Assembly (NCBI GenBank): GCA_918026815.1
Contig: CAKJVC010000182.1
Coordinates: 248,001 to 312,000, forward strand
Direction of reading: 5' to 3'
Length of the DNA stretch: 64,000 nucleotides
Source: Chalara sp. BL73
Lineage: Eukaryota > Ascomycota > Leotiomycetes > Helotiales
The notes beneath the pieces were generated by a model. The model did not search any database, was not told the origin of the DNA, and saw only the letters and a list, made by a program, of their open reading frames with translations. Shown here in pieces: positions 17,328 to 64,000 of this stretch (position 1 is the first letter of the stretch; the number at the start of each line of letters is the position of its first letter). A program made the position numbers and the translations under genes.

Positions 17328-18872
17328 CTAACTCCCTGACCTCCTCGCATTCGTGATATTGCTTGCATGTGCCAATAAGAACTTGCAGCAAGTAAGCACA
17401 TACTTACACGCTCTACTCCACGCGTCATCTTGTGCAATGCCCAACTTGATACTCAGCCCGTCGATCTTATCTCCCTCAATCCTATACGGCAGTTTCATCG
17501 AGCTCCTCTCTGCGTCCAACTCACGTGGCAACTTCATCGTCTCTACGAAAGCCCCTAGCTGTCTCATACATTCTAAGAATGCAACCATGGCAATGTCGAA
17601 TTTGCGGTGCATAAATGTGAGGCCGAGAGGCATGTCACCGGATGAGTAGAGCTCAAGGATGGACTTCTTTGGAGGACGAGATGGATGAGAGGAGCTGGCG
17701 GGGGACGGATAGTCATATCGGATTATGCGCGAGGTAGAGCCCATGGGTTGGAGCTCATAGCCGTTGAATTTGAAGCCGAGTTTGTCGGCGATAGTCGCAA
17801 GAAGCAATACGGTATGACCCCAAGCGGCGTTTATTTCTGGCCAATCGACTGGGACGTTCGATAATCGGCCCAAGCGGAGCCCGTTGATGGTTGCGAATGT
17901 GCCATCGTGGCTAATGCAGAAAGCATCGTTGTAGACGTTTGTTCGGTGGAGTTTTTCGAGAAGTTGTGAGTCGTGGTCATATTGCTGATTCACGCTGTCT
18001 CGGACATTTTGGAACTCTATGAGCTTCATTGCGAAATCGTTTCTCTCACTCCAAAATTTCTCTTCTTGAATGTCTAGTTCTCGAGCTTCTTCCTCAAGCT
18101 GAGCTATTTCTTCGTCGACGGCTTTCTGCTCTGCTTCTAATCGCTCTAGCTCTAGGATGGCAGCCTCTTCCTCTTTCTGTGCCTGTTCTAGCATCTCTTT
18201 GGACTCTTTGATTTCTTCCTCGGTAGGCACATTCACATTGACCTGTTTCAACAGCCCAACGAAAGCATCTCGTTCTTTTGATGCAGTTTCAAATCGCTTC
18301 TGCATCCCTTCCACTAGCAGTTCCGTACATTCAACACATATTGGATGATCTATATCAGACCGTGACGTAAGTATGTCGAAGAGCCTGGACGCCCTCTCCA
18401 TATCTTGGGACATTGCCTTCCCTGCATCCTCTACACTTGTTACAGTATCATCCTGCCGCCGATTTTTGGGATTTGTATCCTCTGGAGACTTCACAATAGC
18501 GGGTGGGACAACTTGCGATTCGGTCAACATGACAAACGACATTGCTGGGTTCTGTAAGCCGCTCCTTATCGACTCAGAACCAGAGTCCTTCCCCCTAACT
18601 GCTGATATATTCCGCTTGAATATTGGCGACGGAGCATTGCTGACGACTCTGTCATACAGCTGTTTCCGTTCTTGAGGATAGGCTGGTCGTGATGTGGAAG
18701 TGTTCTTTGGTGGCTGATGAGAAGATGCACCTGGAACCATATATATTAGATGATATAACCAATATACTAAGGTATTAGGAGACGAACCAACCAGCAAATC
18801 AAATGCCGCCGGATTGAGGTCCTCCAAAGAGCTGTCAAGCTTCAGAGGCGTGCGACACTTTTGGCAGTACAT
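17328..18872 (-). CDS. ATG6: autophagy protein Atg6/Vps30 (Beclin)
   Basis: Two exons are proposed, 18872..18788 and 18730..17328 (about 495 residues), with a 57-bp intron whose length is a multiple of three, so the frame also reads through it unspliced. The N terminus MYCQKCRTPLKLDSSL is the fungal Atg6 start (CxxC). The middle has VCVECTELLVEGMQKRFE followed by a long Glu-rich coiled coil (roughly residues 190-275). The evolutionarily conserved C-terminal domain includes NVYNDAFCISHDGTFATING, LGFKFNGYELQPMGSTS and KYVLTCCKFLLAHASN. It is a subunit of the class III PI3-kinase complexes (Vps34-Vps15-Atg6) in autophagy and vacuolar sorting, at endosome and phagophore membranes. Confidence 0.95.
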   Translation of the reverse strand: MYCQKCRTPLKLDSSLEDLNPAAFDLLVGSSPNTLVYWLYHLIYMVPGASSHQPPKNTSTSRPAYPQERKQLYDRVVSNAPSPIFKRNISAVRGKDSGSESIRSGLQNPAMSFVMLTESQVVPPAIVKSPEDTNPKNRRQDDTVTSVEDAGKAMSQDMERASRLFDILTSRSDIDHPICVECTELLVEGMQKRFETASKERDAFVGLLKQVNVNVPTEEEIKESKEMLEQAQKEEEAAILELERLEAEQKAVDEEIAQLEEEARELDIQEEKFWSERNDFAMKLIEFQNVRDSVNQQYDHDSQLLEKLHRTNVYNDAFCISHDGTFATINGLRLGRLSNVPVDWPEINAAWGHTVLLLATIADKLGFKFNGYELQPMGSTSRIIRYDYPSPASSSHPSRPPKKSILELYSSGDMPLGLTFMHRKFDIAMVAFLECMRQLGAFVETMKLPRELDAERSSMKLPYRIEGDKIDGLSIKLGIAQDDAWSRACKYVLTCCKFLLAHASNITNARRSGS

Positions 18873-38143: not shown

Positions 38144-38847
38144 CTGGGCAGTCATAAACTTACGCCCCGTTTCATCAAGCCCAGATCACCGTATTAGGCA
38201 GACATAGGAGGAAGATAGATGGGTTACGGATGAGGGGGATGTCAGGGTAGAAATATTTGTCCCTAGTATCCGTTTCAAGTGCCCCTCCTAACAGGAGACG
38301 GCTGAAATTGGGATAGCCAACGCAAAAACTAAAAGTCGTTGATGCCGAGTGATCGTTCCGTAAGCTCATATAGCACGGAGCGGTCCCGAAGCAGAGTTAT
38401 CACAATGAGACCAGCGCGGAGATTGAGAGCGCTTAACGGCGGTATTTAGGGAAAACGTGGGGCTGGAGGGACGACAAGGGGCATGAAATATGGAGACCGC
38501 AGTAACTAAATTCTTAGTACCTAGGAGGGGAAGAGATGATTTATGTACCAAACATCAAAGTGGTCACTAAATTGCTTTTCTTTGTGGAGCCAAGCTTCGG
38601 AAACGACTGAGTTACTCGTCAAACCAAAATATCAGCAGGTAGCCGCACATGATTCAGAAATTACACTCAACCAGCTAAGATGAGGTTTGTGTGTGAAACT
38701 ATATCTCACAACACTAACTTCCCATCCAGCACGAAAAAAAGAATATCATCCTCAAAATTCAACCAAGCCATAAAATCTCATGAAATGATACAAACAGATA
38801 CATTTTCCCAGCATTCACGGCACATTCTGTACGTCATCGTGTCATAT

Positions 38848-39913
38848 CTAGCCACGAAGAGCGGCATGCAAATCCCGTGTAGCCCAGCGCCTCTCTGCAT
38901 TTCCGCCAGTGCTTGGCGTGAAAAGGCTCGTGGCATTCCTGATCAGGTTTGAGACCCTTAGGATCTTTTCTAGAGTTATCAGCTCCGTCTTCCGGCTCCA
39001 TCCGAGCTCCACGGGCAGCTTCTCGTTTTCTGGTTGTGGTCAGCGTAGCTCTTTGCATATCTTCCTTCCCCCTTATCCCCTTCACCCAACCAAGACAAAG
39101 AAGGAGCAAAAGATAAAGAGAAGGAAAAATTGGAGAAGAGAACTCACCAAACAAAAACTCCACCAAATCCCGCTTCACGGTCCCAAGCTCTAGATCCCCA
39201 AAGGCGATGATCGGCGCGGCGACCTCGCCTAGCGAGAAGGCTTCCGTGGTGGTGGTGAATCTGTATGTGGGGTTGAACGCGCGGGAGGTGATCTGGCGCG
39301 CGAGCTTGGAATTGGCGAGCATGGTCGCGGAGAGGAGAGGGTCGGTCCAGTAGGATTTCGTTTCCGCGAAGACGGTGGCGTTGAAGACGTGGTTGTTGCC
39401 GAAGAAGGCGTCGGTACGGCTCAAGCTGGCGTCGTGCTCGAGGAGGTTGTGGACGTTCAGCTGGTCCCTGAGAGGTGGTTAGTATTCTGGGTTCTTATGG
39501 GGGAGGGGAAGGAGGGTGATGAGATGGGAGCGGCTGGCAAGACGTACAGGGTGAAGAACGTTGCGTTGGGTTCTGGGTTCGCGATGATGGCTTGGTCGAA
39601 CATGATGGTCGCGAGCGCGGAGTCAAAGTTCAGCGCGTTGCCCATGGCGCTGATGACCGCTTCCCGCGTGATGTTCCTGCCGTCGTGTGGGATGAAGCCG
39701 TGGTTAGCGAGCGTGTTCATCATAGGGCATGGCCCTCGGACTAGCAGTTCAGTTATCAGCGTCTATATAGGCCATCCGCGAGCGAGCAAACTCACAATCG
39801 CCTGGGCCGCCGGGAGCCCAAGTATAGAACGACCCTCCTGACGCGGGTGGATAAAATGGCGTTGCGGCAACGAAGCCAAAAGCCATAGCGATGGGGAGTA
39901 GGGGAAGCTGCAT
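38848..39913 (-). CDS. secreted heme-thiolate peroxidase (chloroperoxidase family)
   Basis: Four exons are proposed: 39913..39796, 39740..39548, 39467..39148 and 39029..38848, giving about 270 residues. Residues 1-18 form a signal peptide (MQLPLLPIAMAFGFVAATP). The heme ligand motif RGPCPMMNTLANHGFIPHDG has the proximal cysteine of PF01328. Later comes the EHDASLSR.D segment that carries the distal Glu-His-Asp residues of the family, then FGDLELGTVKRDLVEFLF and ENEKLPVELGW. The length matches typical family members (250-420). The family performs peroxide-dependent oxygenation or halogenation outside the cell. The last intron (about 118 bp) is longer than its neighbours. The first ATG giving a clean signal peptide was chosen over upstream in-frame ATGs to 40030. 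Confidence 0.85.
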
Positions 39914-56032: not shown

Positions 56033-57607
56033 ATGTTCGTGAATCCCCCAAAATCGGCAGAGGGGTACCGGGAGGCTTCTCAAGCTCCATTTGTGCCCAA
56101 ATCCTCAGACGTTTTTATCGCCCTTATGGGGATGACTGGTGCTGGCAAGAGCACCTTTATTTCACACTGCACCGATGAGGAAGTCTACATTAGCGAACCT
56201 GGCGCTCTTGAGTCCTGTAAGTGTAATAGGGTTATTTAGCTTACCCAAGTTTTAAGCACTAATACTGTAATAGGTACTCAAGAAGTCCGAGTCCACAAAT
56301 GCAGTCATTTTAGTCCGTATGGCACTGTCTACTTGGTAGATACGCCTGGTTTTGATGATACCAACCGCAAGGATACTGACATCCTCAAAGAGATTGCCTG
56401 CTGGCTGATAGAGACATATCAGCAAAAGATTAAGCTCCGGGGCATCTTATATCTCCATCGCATTTCTGATAACCGGATGGGCGGATGTGCCCACAAGAAC
56501 TTAGTCATGTTCAAGCGCCTCTGCGGTCCTGACGGGACCAAAAACGTCGTATTTGTCACAACTTTTTGGGAGAAAGTTGACCACGCAGAAGGCGAACGTC
56601 GAGAGAGAACGTTACAAACTACCAAAGATTTCTGGGGTTTTTTTATGGAGAAAGGGGCAGCTGTCAGTCGGCACCAGAACAATCGTGAGTCTGCGTTATC
56701 TATTATACAGCAGTTCGTCCCTGGTTGGGCAGAACAGCCCCCAGAAGAAGTAAAACTTGCCATCCAAACCGAAATGGTTGATTCTGGGAAAGATCTGGAT
56801 CAAACAGCGGCTGGTCAGGAACTGCAAAGCGAGTTCAATAAAGAACGCGAGAAGATGCAGCAAGAAATGAGAGAGAGAGAGAAAGAAATGAGAGACGCCC
56901 TAGCAACACGTGACAAGGAAATGTTCGAATTCCTCCGCCAGGAACAGGAGAAGCAAAAAATGGAGCTGAGGCGCAGAGACAGGGAGATGGAGAGCCTTAA
57001 GGTCAGCATGGAGAAAATGCACGAGGAGAAGATCCAGCGACTAGAGGCTCGAATTCAACAGCAGCAACAGGAGCACATGGAGTACCGACAGGGCTGGGAT
57101 CGTATGAATAAGGAATATCTCGAGCAAATGGGTCGTATGCGAACCGAGCAAGCCAAGGATAGGAATCGGTATGAAAACTTGATGGATAAACTGCATCAGC
57201 AGATCAACGACCTAAAGTGGCGAACACCCAAACATGCTAATGTTCAAAGTTCCGCCCCTGTTCCTGGGCCCCAACCAGAAAGGCCTTGCGATGCTTGCAA
57301 GAATGGTTATGATCCTTGGCTCACTTGCCTAACCTGTGGGGAGGCCTTCGTTAACAGAAACTTACTCTTTCAACATATTGAAGCATTTCAGCATGGCCGA
57401 GACCTTGGAACCCACGAACCCGAGTCTTATACAAGACCATACAGGCGAGAAATTGACCCATATCTGACTTGTTTGACATGTGAGAAAATATTTAGTTGTA
57501 GAGACGATCTTTTCATTCATGTTGAAAAGTTTCAGCATGGTCGAGACCTTAAAACACATAAGCCCGAGCCCTATAGGCGACCTATTTTCTATTCCAGCGG
57601 TCGTTAA
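56033..57607 (+). CDS. AIG1/IMAP-like P-loop GTPase with coiled coil and duplicated zinc fingers
   Basis: Two exons are proposed: 56033..56216 and 56274..57607 (ALESC-TQEVRVHKC), giving about 505 residues. The P-loop MGMTGAGKST lies at residues 32-41. VYLVDTPGFDDTN is G3, followed by ILKEIACWLIETYQQKIKLR and GILYLHRISDNRMGG. The G4 position reads VVFVTTFWEK. Residues about 205-335 form a Glu/Arg/Met/Gln-rich coiled coil. The C terminus has two ~46-residue repeats, DPWLTCLTCGEAFVNRNLLF..H and DPYLTCLTCEKIFSCRDDLF..H, each C-x2-C..H..H with FQHGRDL following. The intron sits at the same place and phase as one in the divergent paralogue. Role unknown; a membrane or nucleic-acid scaffold is possible. 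Confidence 0.85.
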
Positions 57608-60600
57608 CTGTTAATATTTGGTATGGATTTGAGGCAAATTTAGTTGATGCTTAATATATTAGTTTTAGATAGCCTATTATATATATATTAAAAATAAAAT
57701 AACCATATGTGTTACAGTGAAAACATTTAACATTATGAACACATATGTATACCTAACATACAATTTGTTCATATCAGGAGCATTTGGAAGCTCCTAACTA
57801 TTTGGCCGCTAGTATCTCAGCCTAAATACTAAGCGGTAATTGGATACTACTTATGTAAATAATTTAAGGGCTAAAGTTAAAGTTTTTAAGTACCAGCTCT
57901 TAATACTATTTAAGGCGGCCACCCTATCACCATGTAGTTGAAGTTTGCTAGTAATAAAAGTATATTATTTTTTTAAAAAATAAAAAAAGCTTGCGGACCA
58001 AGATAAGATATAAAACAGTTAATTTGTGTATAGTTGTTCAACGCTAGTTTCGCTCTTGTGCGTCCTATGCCAGTACTGGTTGTCACTAACCCAGATCGGG
58101 CGCCTGATATAGGCTAGTTGGTGGGTTTTATTACGAGGGTTATAAACCAAAGAGAGAAGGTTGAGCTCGAGGGGTCCGTCGGCTAGGCAAGGGTTCAACC
58201 TTGACGGCTGTGGCGGCGTTAACCTTTGTTTTACTACGCTGCAAATAAAGGCGGAAACCTTTACATAATCAAGTTTGCACTGAGCATGCTTTTGCTTTAT
58301 GTCACGCTTAATCGAGCACTCGCATTACTTTATGTGTAGTTCTTAGCTCGAATTTAAATACTATTTGTTATTAACTATGATAGAAGGAAAAAGAAAATTC
58401 GAGAATGCATGCGAATTTTGTTTAGTGTGCCCAATACATTAGGCGGATAATGAACACTATGTAAATGGCCACTGTCTAAATTTCATTGGAAATGAGGCTA
58501 TTGTTCTAGAGGAAACGCATAAAACGGCATCATATGCCATTACCAGACGATTTGCACTAAAAAGGTATGGATTGCTAAGCGAATCGACGCTAGTGTGACA
58601 CAAATGCGAAGTAAATAGTTGCATTGGGTTAGAAAAAAGTTGTACACGCCTACTTCCAGACTACCATAATTGTGAAATTGAGAAGGAGGAGCCTTTTTAG
58701 TGCTCCTTGACAGCAGTATTACAAAACTGCATTGTGTTACTGCGACCTTTCCACGCATACAGAAGTAGGACCGAGTTGTCGAATTCACGATCGACAACGC
58801 CCTTCCCAGGTTCGAAATACTCCCGACTGAGGCTTGAGTCAAGAATCCTTGTCCATCGTAATGCTAAATCTTAAAATTCGTAAAAAGGTCATAACTAACT
58901 CTCCCGTCGAATACTCAGGAGGTGACAAAAGCTATTATTACATACCTGCTCGCATTCTCACGTAGCTTTAGATATCATGTCTAGTCATTCCTCGATCCAG
59001 GCTTATGTAACAACGAATGAAGGCTCTTGTCGAGATCTGTGACCTGCTTGCCATGAAATGAACAACAGTCTTATCCTCCAAATACTTCGCTTAGCTATTT
59101 CTTATCCTGCTTATCTCGGGCACTAAGTAGATCAACTGCTACTATCACAATGCGCTGTACCTTCACAGCAAATTCTTGTATTCGGATATGGCAAATCCGC
59201 ATAGCACTTCGTGTTTTCGTTAGGCATATACTGTTATGCCTGTAGCAGAGAAACCGGTTGATGGCTTGACAGAATATCATTCTACGGGTCGTTATCGTTG
59301 TCGGCCACTCTGATTCTTTGCCTAGATCGTAGCTGCAGCTCTTGAATGCTTCCACCGCCCTCCGACCGACATCCTAAGGCAGTTTTGGAAGGCGTCTTTA
59401 GTGTTTTTGGTATAAAGGAAGTTTCGATTATACGAACATCTATTCCGGAAAACCTCGAATCAAGTTAGTGTACTGAGGAATAGGGGCTAATCTTTGGTTG
59501 TCTCTGTTCTAGCCAAATTTTATATCTCAATTCATTAACTTGTAATTCAAAAATGCTACATTTCTGTAGTCTATTGAAGACATTCCGAACAGCCTTTGAT
59601 TCAGAAGGCGGTCTGCCAAAACCCTTGAGGGCTTGCCTAATCAAGAAAGCGACACCACAAGACCTACGACCTTCGATCAAGCATCTCTTTTTTACCGCAA
59701 TGATTGCGGAGCAGGCGACGAACACCGGTGGCGATTTAGGGTCTAGCTAGTTCGATTTTGCCGTAGAACCATGCCTTCCCTTCCCCATCCCCGCTTTCCG
59801 CCCCGTGTACTAACGCGGTACAGATACCAGGCGGCGGGTTCGGCATCTTCGACGACTTCGCCAGCGATCTGGGCAAGGCCACAGGCGGCTAAGGTGCGTA
59901 TTAGGGTGGCATCTCATTTGTGATTGCAGTGCGACTTGTTCACCCCGAAAGTCATGTTCAAAAAGGCCACGTGCTCGCCGCCAAAAGCATCTAGTAGAAG
60001 AAAGTCTGGCGGTTATACATATTTCTATATCAGTAGATCCTGCCCCTAAATGTCCCCAGTAACGGGTCCTTGCAACGTGATCTTGTTAATTATCTTTAAC
60101 GCCCTGATGCTCCAAAAAGCTTGTTACTATGGAGCTCATGTGCTCATGTTATGCAAAAGCTGCAAATATACAAAAAAGATTCCTTTTATGACAGCAAACC
60201 CTACACTATCACCTCTTCACTAGAAGCATATTATGGTGTACCCCGGGTCGGCGCAATCCGAACTTTGTTGGCGTGGTCTGCTGCCAACCCGTTGGTCCCT
60301 TGCCAAGACCCTCGAATGGAATGAATGGCATACCACCAGGCTCGGCATAACCAGGTTTTCCCACGACTAGTCGTCTGCCTCAAATTGGTAGAGCTCTTCG
60401 AACTTGCAGTCCTTCAATCCTTCAATACTTTTTCGTGAACTTGGTCGGTAGGGTTCTGCAATATGAGAGAAATGGTCTTTCTTGACAACCCGCCACAAGT
60501 AAGTTGATTATTGATGGTTTTGTCGCTCTGTAACAAGAACCTTGGTCTGAAGTGTACATGTACTTTGGAAAACGTGGCAGCATGGGAGTACGTCAGGTAT

Positions 60601-62184
60601 CTTGAAAGAGCGAACAGTAGAGTACGTAGAGAGGAGGGGACAAAATCGTGTAGACCGTTTATACTGGTTCGTGTTTATTCCTGGGAGCAACAACGTGATG
60701 ACTGTATCCAACTTGCAACCAACTAGAAATGCCTGTGCATATCCTCTACTAGTCGCTAAATGTCGGAAGCGAGTCACCTGGTTGCAAGTGGTGGCTCTAA
60801 AACGTAAATAACTTTACTGCAACTACCCCAATTGATTCTGGGCCGTGAGATCCTGGGTACGGTCCATAGTTTTTTCTGGCATATCCTTTCCGTGGCGAGG
60901 CGGTCCCTCAAACTCGGCTTAATAGCTGTGCTATTCAGTACTGTTGCGCTTGGTCCCCCGCTTTCTTTAGGTTACTACGAGCCAACGAGCGTGTTAGCAT
61001 TACCTAAACCAGCGATTGAACCTTTAAATAAAGGTTGTTAAATCATTGAAATGACACTAAGGTCTGAGGTGGTGGCAGCTGGAGCGAGAAAATATATCGG
61101 AGGCTGCGGCGGCAAACTACCCTTAATTAGGCTTTATGGATCGGCTCCAGCTATGCGACTTGTAAACATATGGTTAACGGTCAGATAATGACAGACAAAA
61201 CCGTAGCCAGAAAGGTAACAATAATCAAATATTTGCTTTTGGGAGAATTATCTAGCATAAGGCTTACTTGGTTATCCATCGTGAAACTCTATTCCCAGAC
61301 TATCCTTTCCCAGGCACTCTACTAGAAATTACAACATCGAACAAGAAACAATATTGACTTGATCTATATGGGCCCGCTTTCCCAATTGTTGGCAAGACGA
61401 ATAATCTATGCATTATGGCGATTCGTCCATTGTATCTTTCCCGCATTCAATTCTCGTCACATGCTAGCTGGTGATTAAATCACACCAGGCATATTTCAGT
61501 CCTTTCCCATTTTATGCCAATTCTCGTGTCACACTACAACCTCATTGGCTGTTTCCTCCCGACAACTTGGTCGTCCTTTGAGTTCACATGCATTCCTGTT
61601 TAATAAGATCATGGTGTAGTGTTGGGTAAACTAGTCATAGTCCCAGGGCGTGGCGCCCTCCAGCTACCTACGCAATAAAACCGTCCGGCCAAAGCTGTGG
61701 TAGGTAAATGGTAGCGCCATCTCCGTTTCACATAGGGACACCATTTCAACGACGGTTCAGCTGTATATGACTCATTCGCAGTATTTTTTGGCCTGTCCAT
61801 GTGCGAGATGGTATTATGATCATCATTTGCCCCCCTAGGCTAATATTTCAGCTGAAATCATTATCAGGAAAGCAGCCCCAGCGGAAAAAGAGGCGCATCC
61901 GAATTTGGATTTGTAAATCCAGCTCGGGTTGCAAAATATTTCTGACCTGCCTCACCTCGAATGATGGGCCATTGTGATAGGCTCCGTGTTTGTGAAGTCA
62001 ATACAAAGGAAAGCGCCTCCATGTCAGACCAACATCTTACAAACAGTTTTACAGAGTTCAAGAAGGTATAAGATGTGGCTAGGGATTCATTTGAGAAGGA
62101 CACCGCACATCAGTCCTTCTATTGTTCTCAAAGTTCTCCATAACGAGCACACATTGAAGCTATTCACTTGCAGAGACTTCAGAT
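57608..62184. other. 4.6 kb gene-poor, partly AT-rich accessory region
   Basis: No intact gene was found. 57640-58060 is strongly AT-rich. Frames at 58540-58842, 59095-59355 and 59465-59725 (minus) and 60508-60777 (minus) are interrupted, short and unrecognised; the 59.1-59.7 kb ones run in the same direction and may be remains of one decayed gene. A short Gly/Asp-rich frame at about 59822-59891 plus (GGGFGIFDDFASDLGKATGG) resembles tails of small fungal secreted proteins but has no start. Confidence 0.4.
57640..58060. repeat. AT-rich island, possible RIP-decayed repeat
   Basis: This has dense A/T runs and TA steps (for example 57660-57720 and 57955-58000) directly downstream of the second GTPase gene, with stops in all frames and no recognisable ends. 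RIP decay of a former repeat is the likely cause but is not shown. Confidence 0.35.
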
Positions 62185-62486
62185 ATGCATTACTACAAAG
62201 CTCTTATACTTGCCATGGCCCTTAGCTTTATGACTGCAGCACTGCCAGCTCATTCACCAACAAGTAAGCAAGTGACAAAAGCCGCTATTGCTGATATCCC
62301 AACTTAGCCCTTGGTATCTGCGTTTAATATAGATAACTGATTGATTCACTAGTCTCTACTCTAGTCGATACTGACGGCCGCGGGGGGTACAATAAGCGCG
62401 AAGAGACGCAGGGTCGTGGCGGGTACAACAAGCGTGGAGAGACAAATGCAGCGGTGGTGCTCAGAAATGATAAGGCTTTTGAATAA
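62185..62486 (+). CDS. secreted KEX2-processed repeat peptide precursor (RiPP- or pheromone-like)
   Basis: Two exons are proposed: 62185..62263 and 62353..62486, with an 89-bp intron (GTAAGC donor, branch-like TAACTGAT, acceptor CACTAG) and a 70-residue product. Residues 1-22 form a clear signal peptide (MHYYKALILAMALSFMTAAL). After a short spacer (HSPTISTLVDTD) come two tandem 12-residue units, GRGGYNKREETQ and GRGGYNKRGETN (codons 62376-62411 and 62412-62447), then a tail ending NDKAFE. Each unit ends its core with KR, the Kex2 cleavage site. In the eight codons GRGGYNKR the units differ at five third positions, all silent. This architecture is known for dikaritin-type RiPP precursors (UstA, PhomA) and for mating pheromone precursors. 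The core is not one I know, and no UstY-like (DUF3328) partner is visible nearby. The gene is too short for ordinary ORF callers. Confidence 0.7.
62376..62447 (+). repeat. two 36-bp tandem coding repeats of the peptide precursor
   Basis: Two in-frame 12-codon units encode GRGGYNKR followed by a variable 4-residue spacer (EETQ, GETN). Base differences in the conserved part are only at third codon positions. Confidence 0.85.
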
Positions 62487-64000
62487 TAAGTAGCACCCCC
62501 ACTCTACCAGTATGTCATCCTTGCTCCTTGAACTTTCACGCGTGGACGAAAAGATACCTACTGATTATTGAGCAGAATTGTGCGAATGGATAAGTCAGGG
62601 TATTATATTTCGAATAGTTTAGTGAGAGGATTTTATGGATGAAGGGCGGTTTTTTATAGTAGTTTGAACACTTTTAGTCTTAATTCGGATGCTACATAAC
62701 CATCATGGAAAATGCATATCGCAGCTCCTATTCTTTTAGCTCTTATCTGTTGCGAAACTTATATGGCAATATTGATACTAAGGTAGCAGAGGTCTTATTC
62801 AGAGTTGATAATATTAAGTGAATACTACTACACATGTTCTGCTGCCGCATATAGGTACTAGCTAGAATAAGCCTCGGTACCCTTGCGACTCTAAAACACT
62901 TGCAGTTTGCGCTTTTCTGATGCATTTTCTTGTAGCTTGGGATTGCACCATTTTCCCGGGACAGCCATTACGACTGCGTGGCCATCCCACGAATCCAACG
63001 TTTAAAATCCCCCGTTTAGATTCATGGCAAATCGGCGATCTCAACTTCGTGTAGTGGATGCGAGCTGCTCCTCCTGCTTTCGGTTATCCGCTTGTAGCCG
63101 TCGGCGCCAAAGTAAGGATTTATGCAAGAAGCGTTATCATAGTATTGTATCTTCACAAAATTTGCGCACTACTCGACGTCCCTACCAGGCGAGAATCTCG
63201 ATATCTGCTTTCTAGTTGGAAGACTCTTCTTTGGTCTTACAGCCAATATTAAGCTTCATAGGTCCAGTGTCTGGCATTTATTCAGGGGTGTTGATGGACT
63301 CGGTGGCTCACGATGTTGACATCAAATTGGAGCAACAATCCGGCCCCATCACCGTCCTCAATCTCCTCGACATTTCAGCTGCAGTGGCCATTGCCGAATC
63401 GACCCAGTAGCCACGGAGCCACAGATCAGAGCTGTAGCGAAGGAAGCCATTGCTGCACCGGCAAATATTTAATCAGGTTACGATACTTGCGTTGAGCGAT
63501 ACGATTCTGGATTCTTCTCTGTTCAGCAAGTTCAGAGATTTTAGTTCAATCTTCATTTAGATTTGCTGCACTGCTGAAAACGCTCTCCTTTTTCAACGCC
63601 ATTTTTGTTGAATGTATTTGCCGAGACATACTGATAAGACAGAGATAATAATTCAGTAATTGGGCAATATAATGTGCGGTAGCTTATCTGTTGTAAAGAG
63701 TGAAAAGAAACCTGGTTCTATATTATATGTTGGCTCAAGTAATGGCTTGTAGGTTAGGCTAGAAATAGCTGCTATTCAGTTGAAGTGCGAAAAAGGCTGA
63801 TAAATGGCTTATAGCAAACGCAAGAAATAGACTTTAGGTTTTCCGCAAACTACTGTAAAATTTATGCGGGGAATTTAAATACCCACTATCGGGTGTTAAC
63901 CGAAGGGACATATCTCCCATGCTATCCCTATGGTAGATCGCCAAAGTGTGTAGGTATACGGGCCTTATGGTACATCAGCAAATATGACACCAGTTCCTTC
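62487..64000. other. right-edge region, no gene recognised
   Basis: Short frames (63024-63215, 63058-63252, 63216-63410 plus; 62743-62925 minus) are unassigned. The stretch 63010-63410 plus has coding-like patches (e.g. FGYPLVAVGAKVRIYA) in shifting frames, which may be remains of a gene. 63600-63860 is AT-rich. Confidence 0.4.

Follow-up and report, generated by a model that had tools for sequence, protein, structure and literature searches.

A small, probably spliced gene of Chalara sp. BL73 with two GRGGYN-KR units as a likely precursor of Kex2-released peptides

What could a reading frame of only 70 residues, in which the unit GRGGYNKR occurs twice, be making in a helotialean fungus? The frame lies near the right end of the stretch of DNA that was analysed (64,000 nucleotides, contig positions 248,001 to 312,000 on the 874-kb contig C159; hereafter the window). 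An earlier note on this DNA had proposed a precursor of repeat peptides processed at Kex2 sites, and had named dikaritin-type RiPPs and mating pheromones as the systems with this layout. The two-exon structure that it proposed is reproduced exactly: window positions 62185-62263 and 62353-62486 join in frame to encode MHYYKALILAMALSFMTAALPAHSPTISTLVDTDGRGGYNKREETQGRGGYNKRGETNAAVVLRNDKAFE, which consists of 70 residues and a stop codon and contains a signal-like N terminus and two copies of GRGGYNKR. The parts of the gene are as follows.

62185..62263, forward strand: exon 1, 79 nt, read from the sequence; predicted signal peptide MHYYKALILAMALSFMTAALPA, with a putative cleavage site, then HSPT, which opens the pro-region; codon phase 1 at the 3' end
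62264..62352, forward strand: putative intron, 89 nt, placed by sequence and reading frame; GTAAGC donor, CACTAG acceptor and a CTGAT branch-like site
62353..62486, forward strand: exon 2, 134 nt; the remaining pro-region up to LVDTD, two GRGGYN-KR units, the C-terminal tail GETNAAVVLRNDKAFE and the stop codon
62376..62399, forward strand: repeat copy 1, GRGGYNKR
62400..62411, forward strand: spacer EETQ between the units, similar to the residues that precede copy 1 (VDTD) and to those that follow copy 2 (GETN)
62412..62435, forward strand: repeat copy 2, GRGGYNKR, with 5 silent differences from copy 1

Splicing across the 62263/62353 junction is likely, judging from the sequence and the reading frame. 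The intron length is not divisible by three, and neither exon frame by itself joins the signal to the repeats. The joining of exon 1 to exon 2 is further supported by a related protein, described below, in which a signal-like segment and the motifs are contiguous. An alternative in-frame acceptor 12 nt downstream, ending at 62364, would give a 66-residue form. The signal peptide was predicted from hydropathy alone: the best 12-residue mean at the N terminus is 2.2 and is accompanied by an early lysine, and among the window's 897 open ATG frames, 15 begin with a segment at least as hydrophobic that also has an early lysine or arginine.

The repeat itself exceeds chance expectation. The 64-kb window was simulated 60 times with a first-order Markov model; once low-complexity rows had been dropped, these simulations contained no identical in-frame repeat of eight or more residues and one of six or more. 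The real 134 kb around the locus contains five rows with at least six identical residues. Three are retained after removal of low complexity: one lies in a zinc-finger-like ORF, and the others are the GRGGYNKR repeat and its shadow on the antisense strand. In 200 kb taken from elsewhere on the contig, 163 rows have at least six identical residues and nine remain after the same removal, none of which ends in KR. The two 24-base copies differ at 5 bases, all of them silent; when 5 random changes were simulated 200,000 times, the GRGGYNKR protein stayed unchanged in 57 cases. On the reverse strand, an open frame of 59 codons (window 62327-62503) reads RLLYPPRP twice in identical form and probably just mirrors the repeat on the sense strand. 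Since the same 5 differences are silent in this frame too, the silent-change test argues for coding but not for a strand; the related protein favours the sense frame.

These observations bear on the possibility that there is no gene here, only a duplication of the minisatellite type that adjoins an open frame unrelated to it. The locus carries no annotation, and the region from 57.6 to 64.6 kb lacks ORFs of 110 or more residues and is lower in G+C, as such a reading would have it. However, the copies differ only silently, the exons join in frame, and the related protein has both a signal-like start and the motifs, which makes this explanation extremely improbable.

The relative was found by widening the protein search. 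At the true length of 70 residues, which effectively admits proteins of 38-122 residues, the search returned no candidate from a database that includes the proteins of Bisporella sp. PMI_857, likely a near helotialean relative of the host and the species that provides the best listed match to the Atg6 encoded in the window (488 of 514 aligned columns identical; the mismatched columns comprise a gap of 19 that fits a read-through intron and 7 substitutions). The search relies on shared five-residue words and misses diverged or unannotated relatives; an orthologue in Bisporella sp. PMI_857 may lack annotation, may have diverged beyond the reach of the word filter, or may not exist. Padding the query with X opened the search to longer proteins and brought up 14 candidates, of which one matched, a protein of 165 residues (P0121) encoded on a single 2167-base contig, with an E value of 1.4e-6 against 5.8 billion sequences. 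BLASTP aligns it to the window protein with 23 of 56 residues identical, and the alignment score of 100 compares with a mean of 26.5 and a maximum of 57 in 2000 shuffles of P0121. Read from an inner methionine, P0121 begins with a signal-like segment (MRTWVISAIVGLLVAQTIAS), behind which come six motifs, two of them GRGGYN and four GRSGYN. KR stands directly behind motifs 2 and 4 and S[IV] behind motifs 1, 3 and 5; the protein ends at motif 6, either because a stop codon follows or because the contig runs out there. A search of the genome with P0121 returned the locus and one further match at E 3.3, taken as chance, and a scan of viral contigs gave three stretches that fit a pattern, none of them confirmed. 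The evidence thus falls short of conservation of the repeats in close relatives, on which the earlier note had made its proposal depend: the motif plan recurs in one other protein, from a single short contig, and the true-length search gave no candidate. Six GR[GS]GYN motifs behind a similar predicted signal make a small precursor family likely.

The arrangement of KR sites in P0121 also bears on whether the proteins are cut at all. They could instead be secreted and largely uncut GRGGYN-repeat proteins, bound for instance to wall or matrix, in which KR is incidental. Glycine- and tyrosine-rich repeats are found in structural proteins, and P0121 has six motifs and only two KR sites. Counted from the predicted start methionine, however, all four KR sites across the two proteins (two of two in each) directly follow GYN, and the window protein keeps both KR sites while two of the four residues behind them differ (EETQ and GETN). 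We therefore regard an uncut protein as unlikely, although the presence of KR behind only two of the six P0121 motifs indicates that release of single motifs is not common to both proteins.

Within the 58.66-Mb genome (199 contigs), an intron-blind DNA pattern for GRGGYNKR has two matches, both at the locus, and none in the reversed control. The looser pattern GG[YF][ND]KR occurs at four places as against five in the reversed control; two of the four are the locus, and at the other two there is no repeat and stop codons soon interrupt the frame. Without KR and with a few other residues admitted, GR[GS]GYN occurs at 14 places as against 12 in the reversed control, and these matches are mostly background. 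Two of the 14 are the locus, five lie outside the five stretches that were inspected, and the seven within them comprise a triple in a single small ORF, three places in glycine-rich frames without a repeated GRGGYN-KR, and one in a frame that contains stops. The ORF with the triple (C62:1554800-1555450, reverse strand) has 67 residues and three [FD]GRGGYN motifs separated by acidic spacers, the last directly before the stop. Its start is not signal-like (hydropathy 0.61 as against 2.2 in the window protein), and its alignment score of 68, which comes from the motif alone, compares with a maximum of 53 in 2000 shuffles. Thus, the motif is not restricted to secreted proteins, a point that counts against the reading we prefer.

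This ORF is possibly a member of an Amu1-like or other small intracellular family, and it raises the question of whether the window protein, too, is an intracellular GRGG-motif protein akin to Amu1/Par32 (DUF3602, with GRGGAGN repeats), its hydrophobic start having arisen by chance. The GRGGAGN repeats of Amu1/Par32 are required for interaction with the Mep ammonium transporters (PMC4501750), and the published pattern G-R-G-G-X-[AG]-N is just one residue longer than GRGGYN (PMC4501750). Together with a signal-less ORF that has three GRGGYN motifs in the same genome, this is what speaks for the kinship. Four DUF3602 matches lie elsewhere in the genome, however, and at E values up to 10, a setting in which filters drop most weak matches, the listings for the three proteins (window protein, P0121 and C62 ORF) do not include DUF3602. 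Nor did Pfam at that threshold return any other domain for the three; a shortened P0121 gave two matches (E 6.9 and 8.3) that were taken as chance, and NCBIfam gave no match. The start of P0121 is likewise signal-like, and we consider an Amu1-type intracellular protein very unlikely.

A mating role was the next possibility, in which the gene would encode the alpha-type pheromone precursor of the fungus. The plans are alike in having a signal-like start, few repeats, KR sites and a polar spacer, EETQ, and the spacer of yeast alpha-factor begins with Glu after KR, as EETQ does. The 70-residue protein, however, has no cysteine, and EETQ and GETN directly follow KR in place of the XA/XP dipeptides of Ste13. 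Leotiomycete pheromones have two conserved cysteines (PMC6339444). A pattern for a two-cysteine core, with up to three mismatches permitted, matched the genome at six places as against one in the reversed control, and three of the six fall within about 740 bases on another contig. Here (C8:59700-60900, reverse strand) lies a separate precursor of the alpha-pheromone type. Its start, MKLTSSICALILAATSAHA, is signal-like, and it contains at least 13 CG[KR]PGQPC cores; GR stands behind nine of 13 cores and GK behind four, the spacers are rich in XA/XP, and the frame runs past the stretch that was inspected. Given this precursor and the lack of cysteine in the window protein, the pheromone role is likely that of the C8 gene. 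The pheromone option of the earlier note is thus disfavoured, and we take it to be highly improbable for the GRGGYN gene.

The other option, a dikaritin-type RiPP precursor, would have GRGGYN or EETQGRGGYN released and its tyrosine and asparagine crosslinked by UstYa-type oxidases encoded elsewhere. The signal-like start, the Kex2 sites and the tyrosine in the core are in keeping with it, and other contigs of the genome carry 89 UstYa and 39 tyrosinase matches (counted exon-wise). In the 2020 survey of Kex2-processed repeat proteins, tyrosine is present in 65.6% of the repeats with a nearby DUF3328 gene and in 38.2% of those without, which also counts in favour (PMC7329392). The same survey places DUF3328 genes near 22% of the precursors, at an average distance of 3.09 genes, and, with three exceptions, not near mating factors (PMC7329392). 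For the DUF3328/UstY and tyrosinase partners that the earlier note suggested seeking beyond the right window edge, however, no match lies anywhere on the 874-kb contig (none of 89 and none of 39, respectively), and set against the survey's average distance (PMC7329392) this disfavours a dikaritin. We judge it quite unlikely.

The scanned part of the neighbourhood likewise shows no evident RiPP cluster. The Pfam scan covered 50 of the 160 ORFs of at least 110 residues in the 134 kb around the locus, all beginning at window position 17331 or to the right of it; 15 of the 50 have a match at E <=0.001, some of them under Pfam's own cut-off, and 35 have none. The matches are to Atg6, Scm3, arrestin-type, Bul1, DUF5427, protein kinase, PAS and PP1-inhibitor-like domains, and also to a zinc-finger-like ORF, a GT28 glycosyltransferase, DUF7514 and Peroxidase_2; no RiPP tailoring enzyme is evident among the 15. 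The nearest oxidative domain is the Peroxidase_2 (chloroperoxidase/peroxygenase-like; window 38837-39478, reverse strand), about 23 kb to the left of the gene. The zinc-finger-like ORF (window 56240-57604, forward strand) has a weak C2H2 match below Pfam's cut-off and repeats FQHGRDL at a distance of 48 residues. It is followed by about 7 kb (window 57605-64000 and on to 64616) with no ORF of 110 or more residues and with G+C bins of 0.42-0.44, within which the peptide gene lies. Rfam has no match between 57 and 64 kb, a tRNA search of the 64-kb window found none, and a bacterial promoter/terminator scan is uninformative in a fungus.

Taken as a whole, the evidence points to a small gene, likely spliced, that probably encodes a secreted precursor with two GRGGYN-KR units, from which Kex2 and Kex1 would release peptides that are likely linear and unmodified and likely serve in signalling or interaction; it would be neither a canonical alpha-pheromone nor a UstYa-cyclised RiPP. 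By analogy with the known route of Kex2-processed repeat proteins (KEPs), signal peptidase would remove the first 22 or so residues, Kex2 would cut behind both KR sites, a Kex1-type carboxypeptidase would trim KR, and peptides with GRGGYN at their C-terminal end would be secreted. The predicted products are HSPTISTLVDTDGRGGYN (unit 1 with the pro-region), EETQGRGGYN (unit 2) and the tail GETNAAVVLRNDKAFE. The calculated monoisotopic [M+H]+ values are 1110.48 for EETQGRGGYN and 623.29 for GRGGYN. We infer the linear form, while a signalling or interaction role is a guess from the class of protein. A Kex2-type protease appears to be available, as the genome has one P_proprotein match (on contig C63, in a search for this domain only). 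The sequence T-x-GR[GS]GYN, directly before KR, is common to products 1 and 2 and to P0121 and is therefore likely the active part. Of the earlier proposal, a Kex2-type repeat precursor with a core that is absent from the literature searched is supported, and its motif plan recurs in P0121; the dikaritin and pheromone options are not supported.

In the portion of the literature covered by the search, the string GRGGYN turned up solely in papers titled on nuclear import or delivery, and the longer motif strings not at all; the KEP tables in the survey supplements were outside its scope. The two KEP surveys considered here demand at least three repeats, and the 2019 survey at least four fragments as well (PMC6339444, PMC7329392). 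Two-copy precursors fall outside both of these filters as given there, and a real family of this kind would mean that fungi secrete more peptides than have been counted. Should the peptide act as a signal, it would provide a short, synthesizable ligand for tests in a helotialean fungus. A bolder reading, which we offer tentatively, is that TxGR[GS]GYN marks a new family of fungal peptide hormones. Their tiny precursors would escape both gene callers and filters set at three repeats, and the hormones would be linear, secreted and distinct in their signalling from the mating pheromones; in its GRGG core the family may recall GRGGAGN, the intracellular motif through which ammonium transporters are bound.

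Among known systems, Amu1/Par32 (DUF3602) shares with the window protein a repeated GRGG motif and the character of a small fungal protein, but GRGGYN is one residue shorter, there is no DUF3602 match, and a signal-like start is combined with KR sites in the window protein. The alpha-pheromone precursors of ascomycetes are similar in their signal-like start, repeats, KR sites and polar spacer after KR, whereas the GRGGYN protein has neither the cysteine pair nor XA/XP after KR, in a genome with a separate two-cysteine gene. With the dikaritin precursors (ustiloxin, phomopsin and asperipin) it has in common the signal-like start, the Kex2 sites and the tyrosine in the core, but its contig has no UstYa/DUF3328 or tyrosinase match, and the ustiloxin/phomopsin core, given as EDYXI (PMC6339444), is unlike GRGGYN.

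The precursor also resembles the KEPs (Le Marquer 2019, Umemura 2020), which likewise combine a signal-like start with identical tandem units ending at KR in a small protein without a Pfam domain. The GRGGYN repeats are bounded by one of the dibasic sites used in the KEP definition (KR, RR or KK), with GRGGYN-KR occurring twice, and the Kex2 protease that the definition calls for is represented in the genome by the P_proprotein match. The differences are that the precursor has only two units and three fragments, which places it under both survey filters as published, that GRGGYN is not among the cores named in the parts of the surveys' text available to us, and that P0121 has KR behind every second motif. 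Even so, though it falls below the survey filters, the GRGGYN precursor likely works like a KEP.
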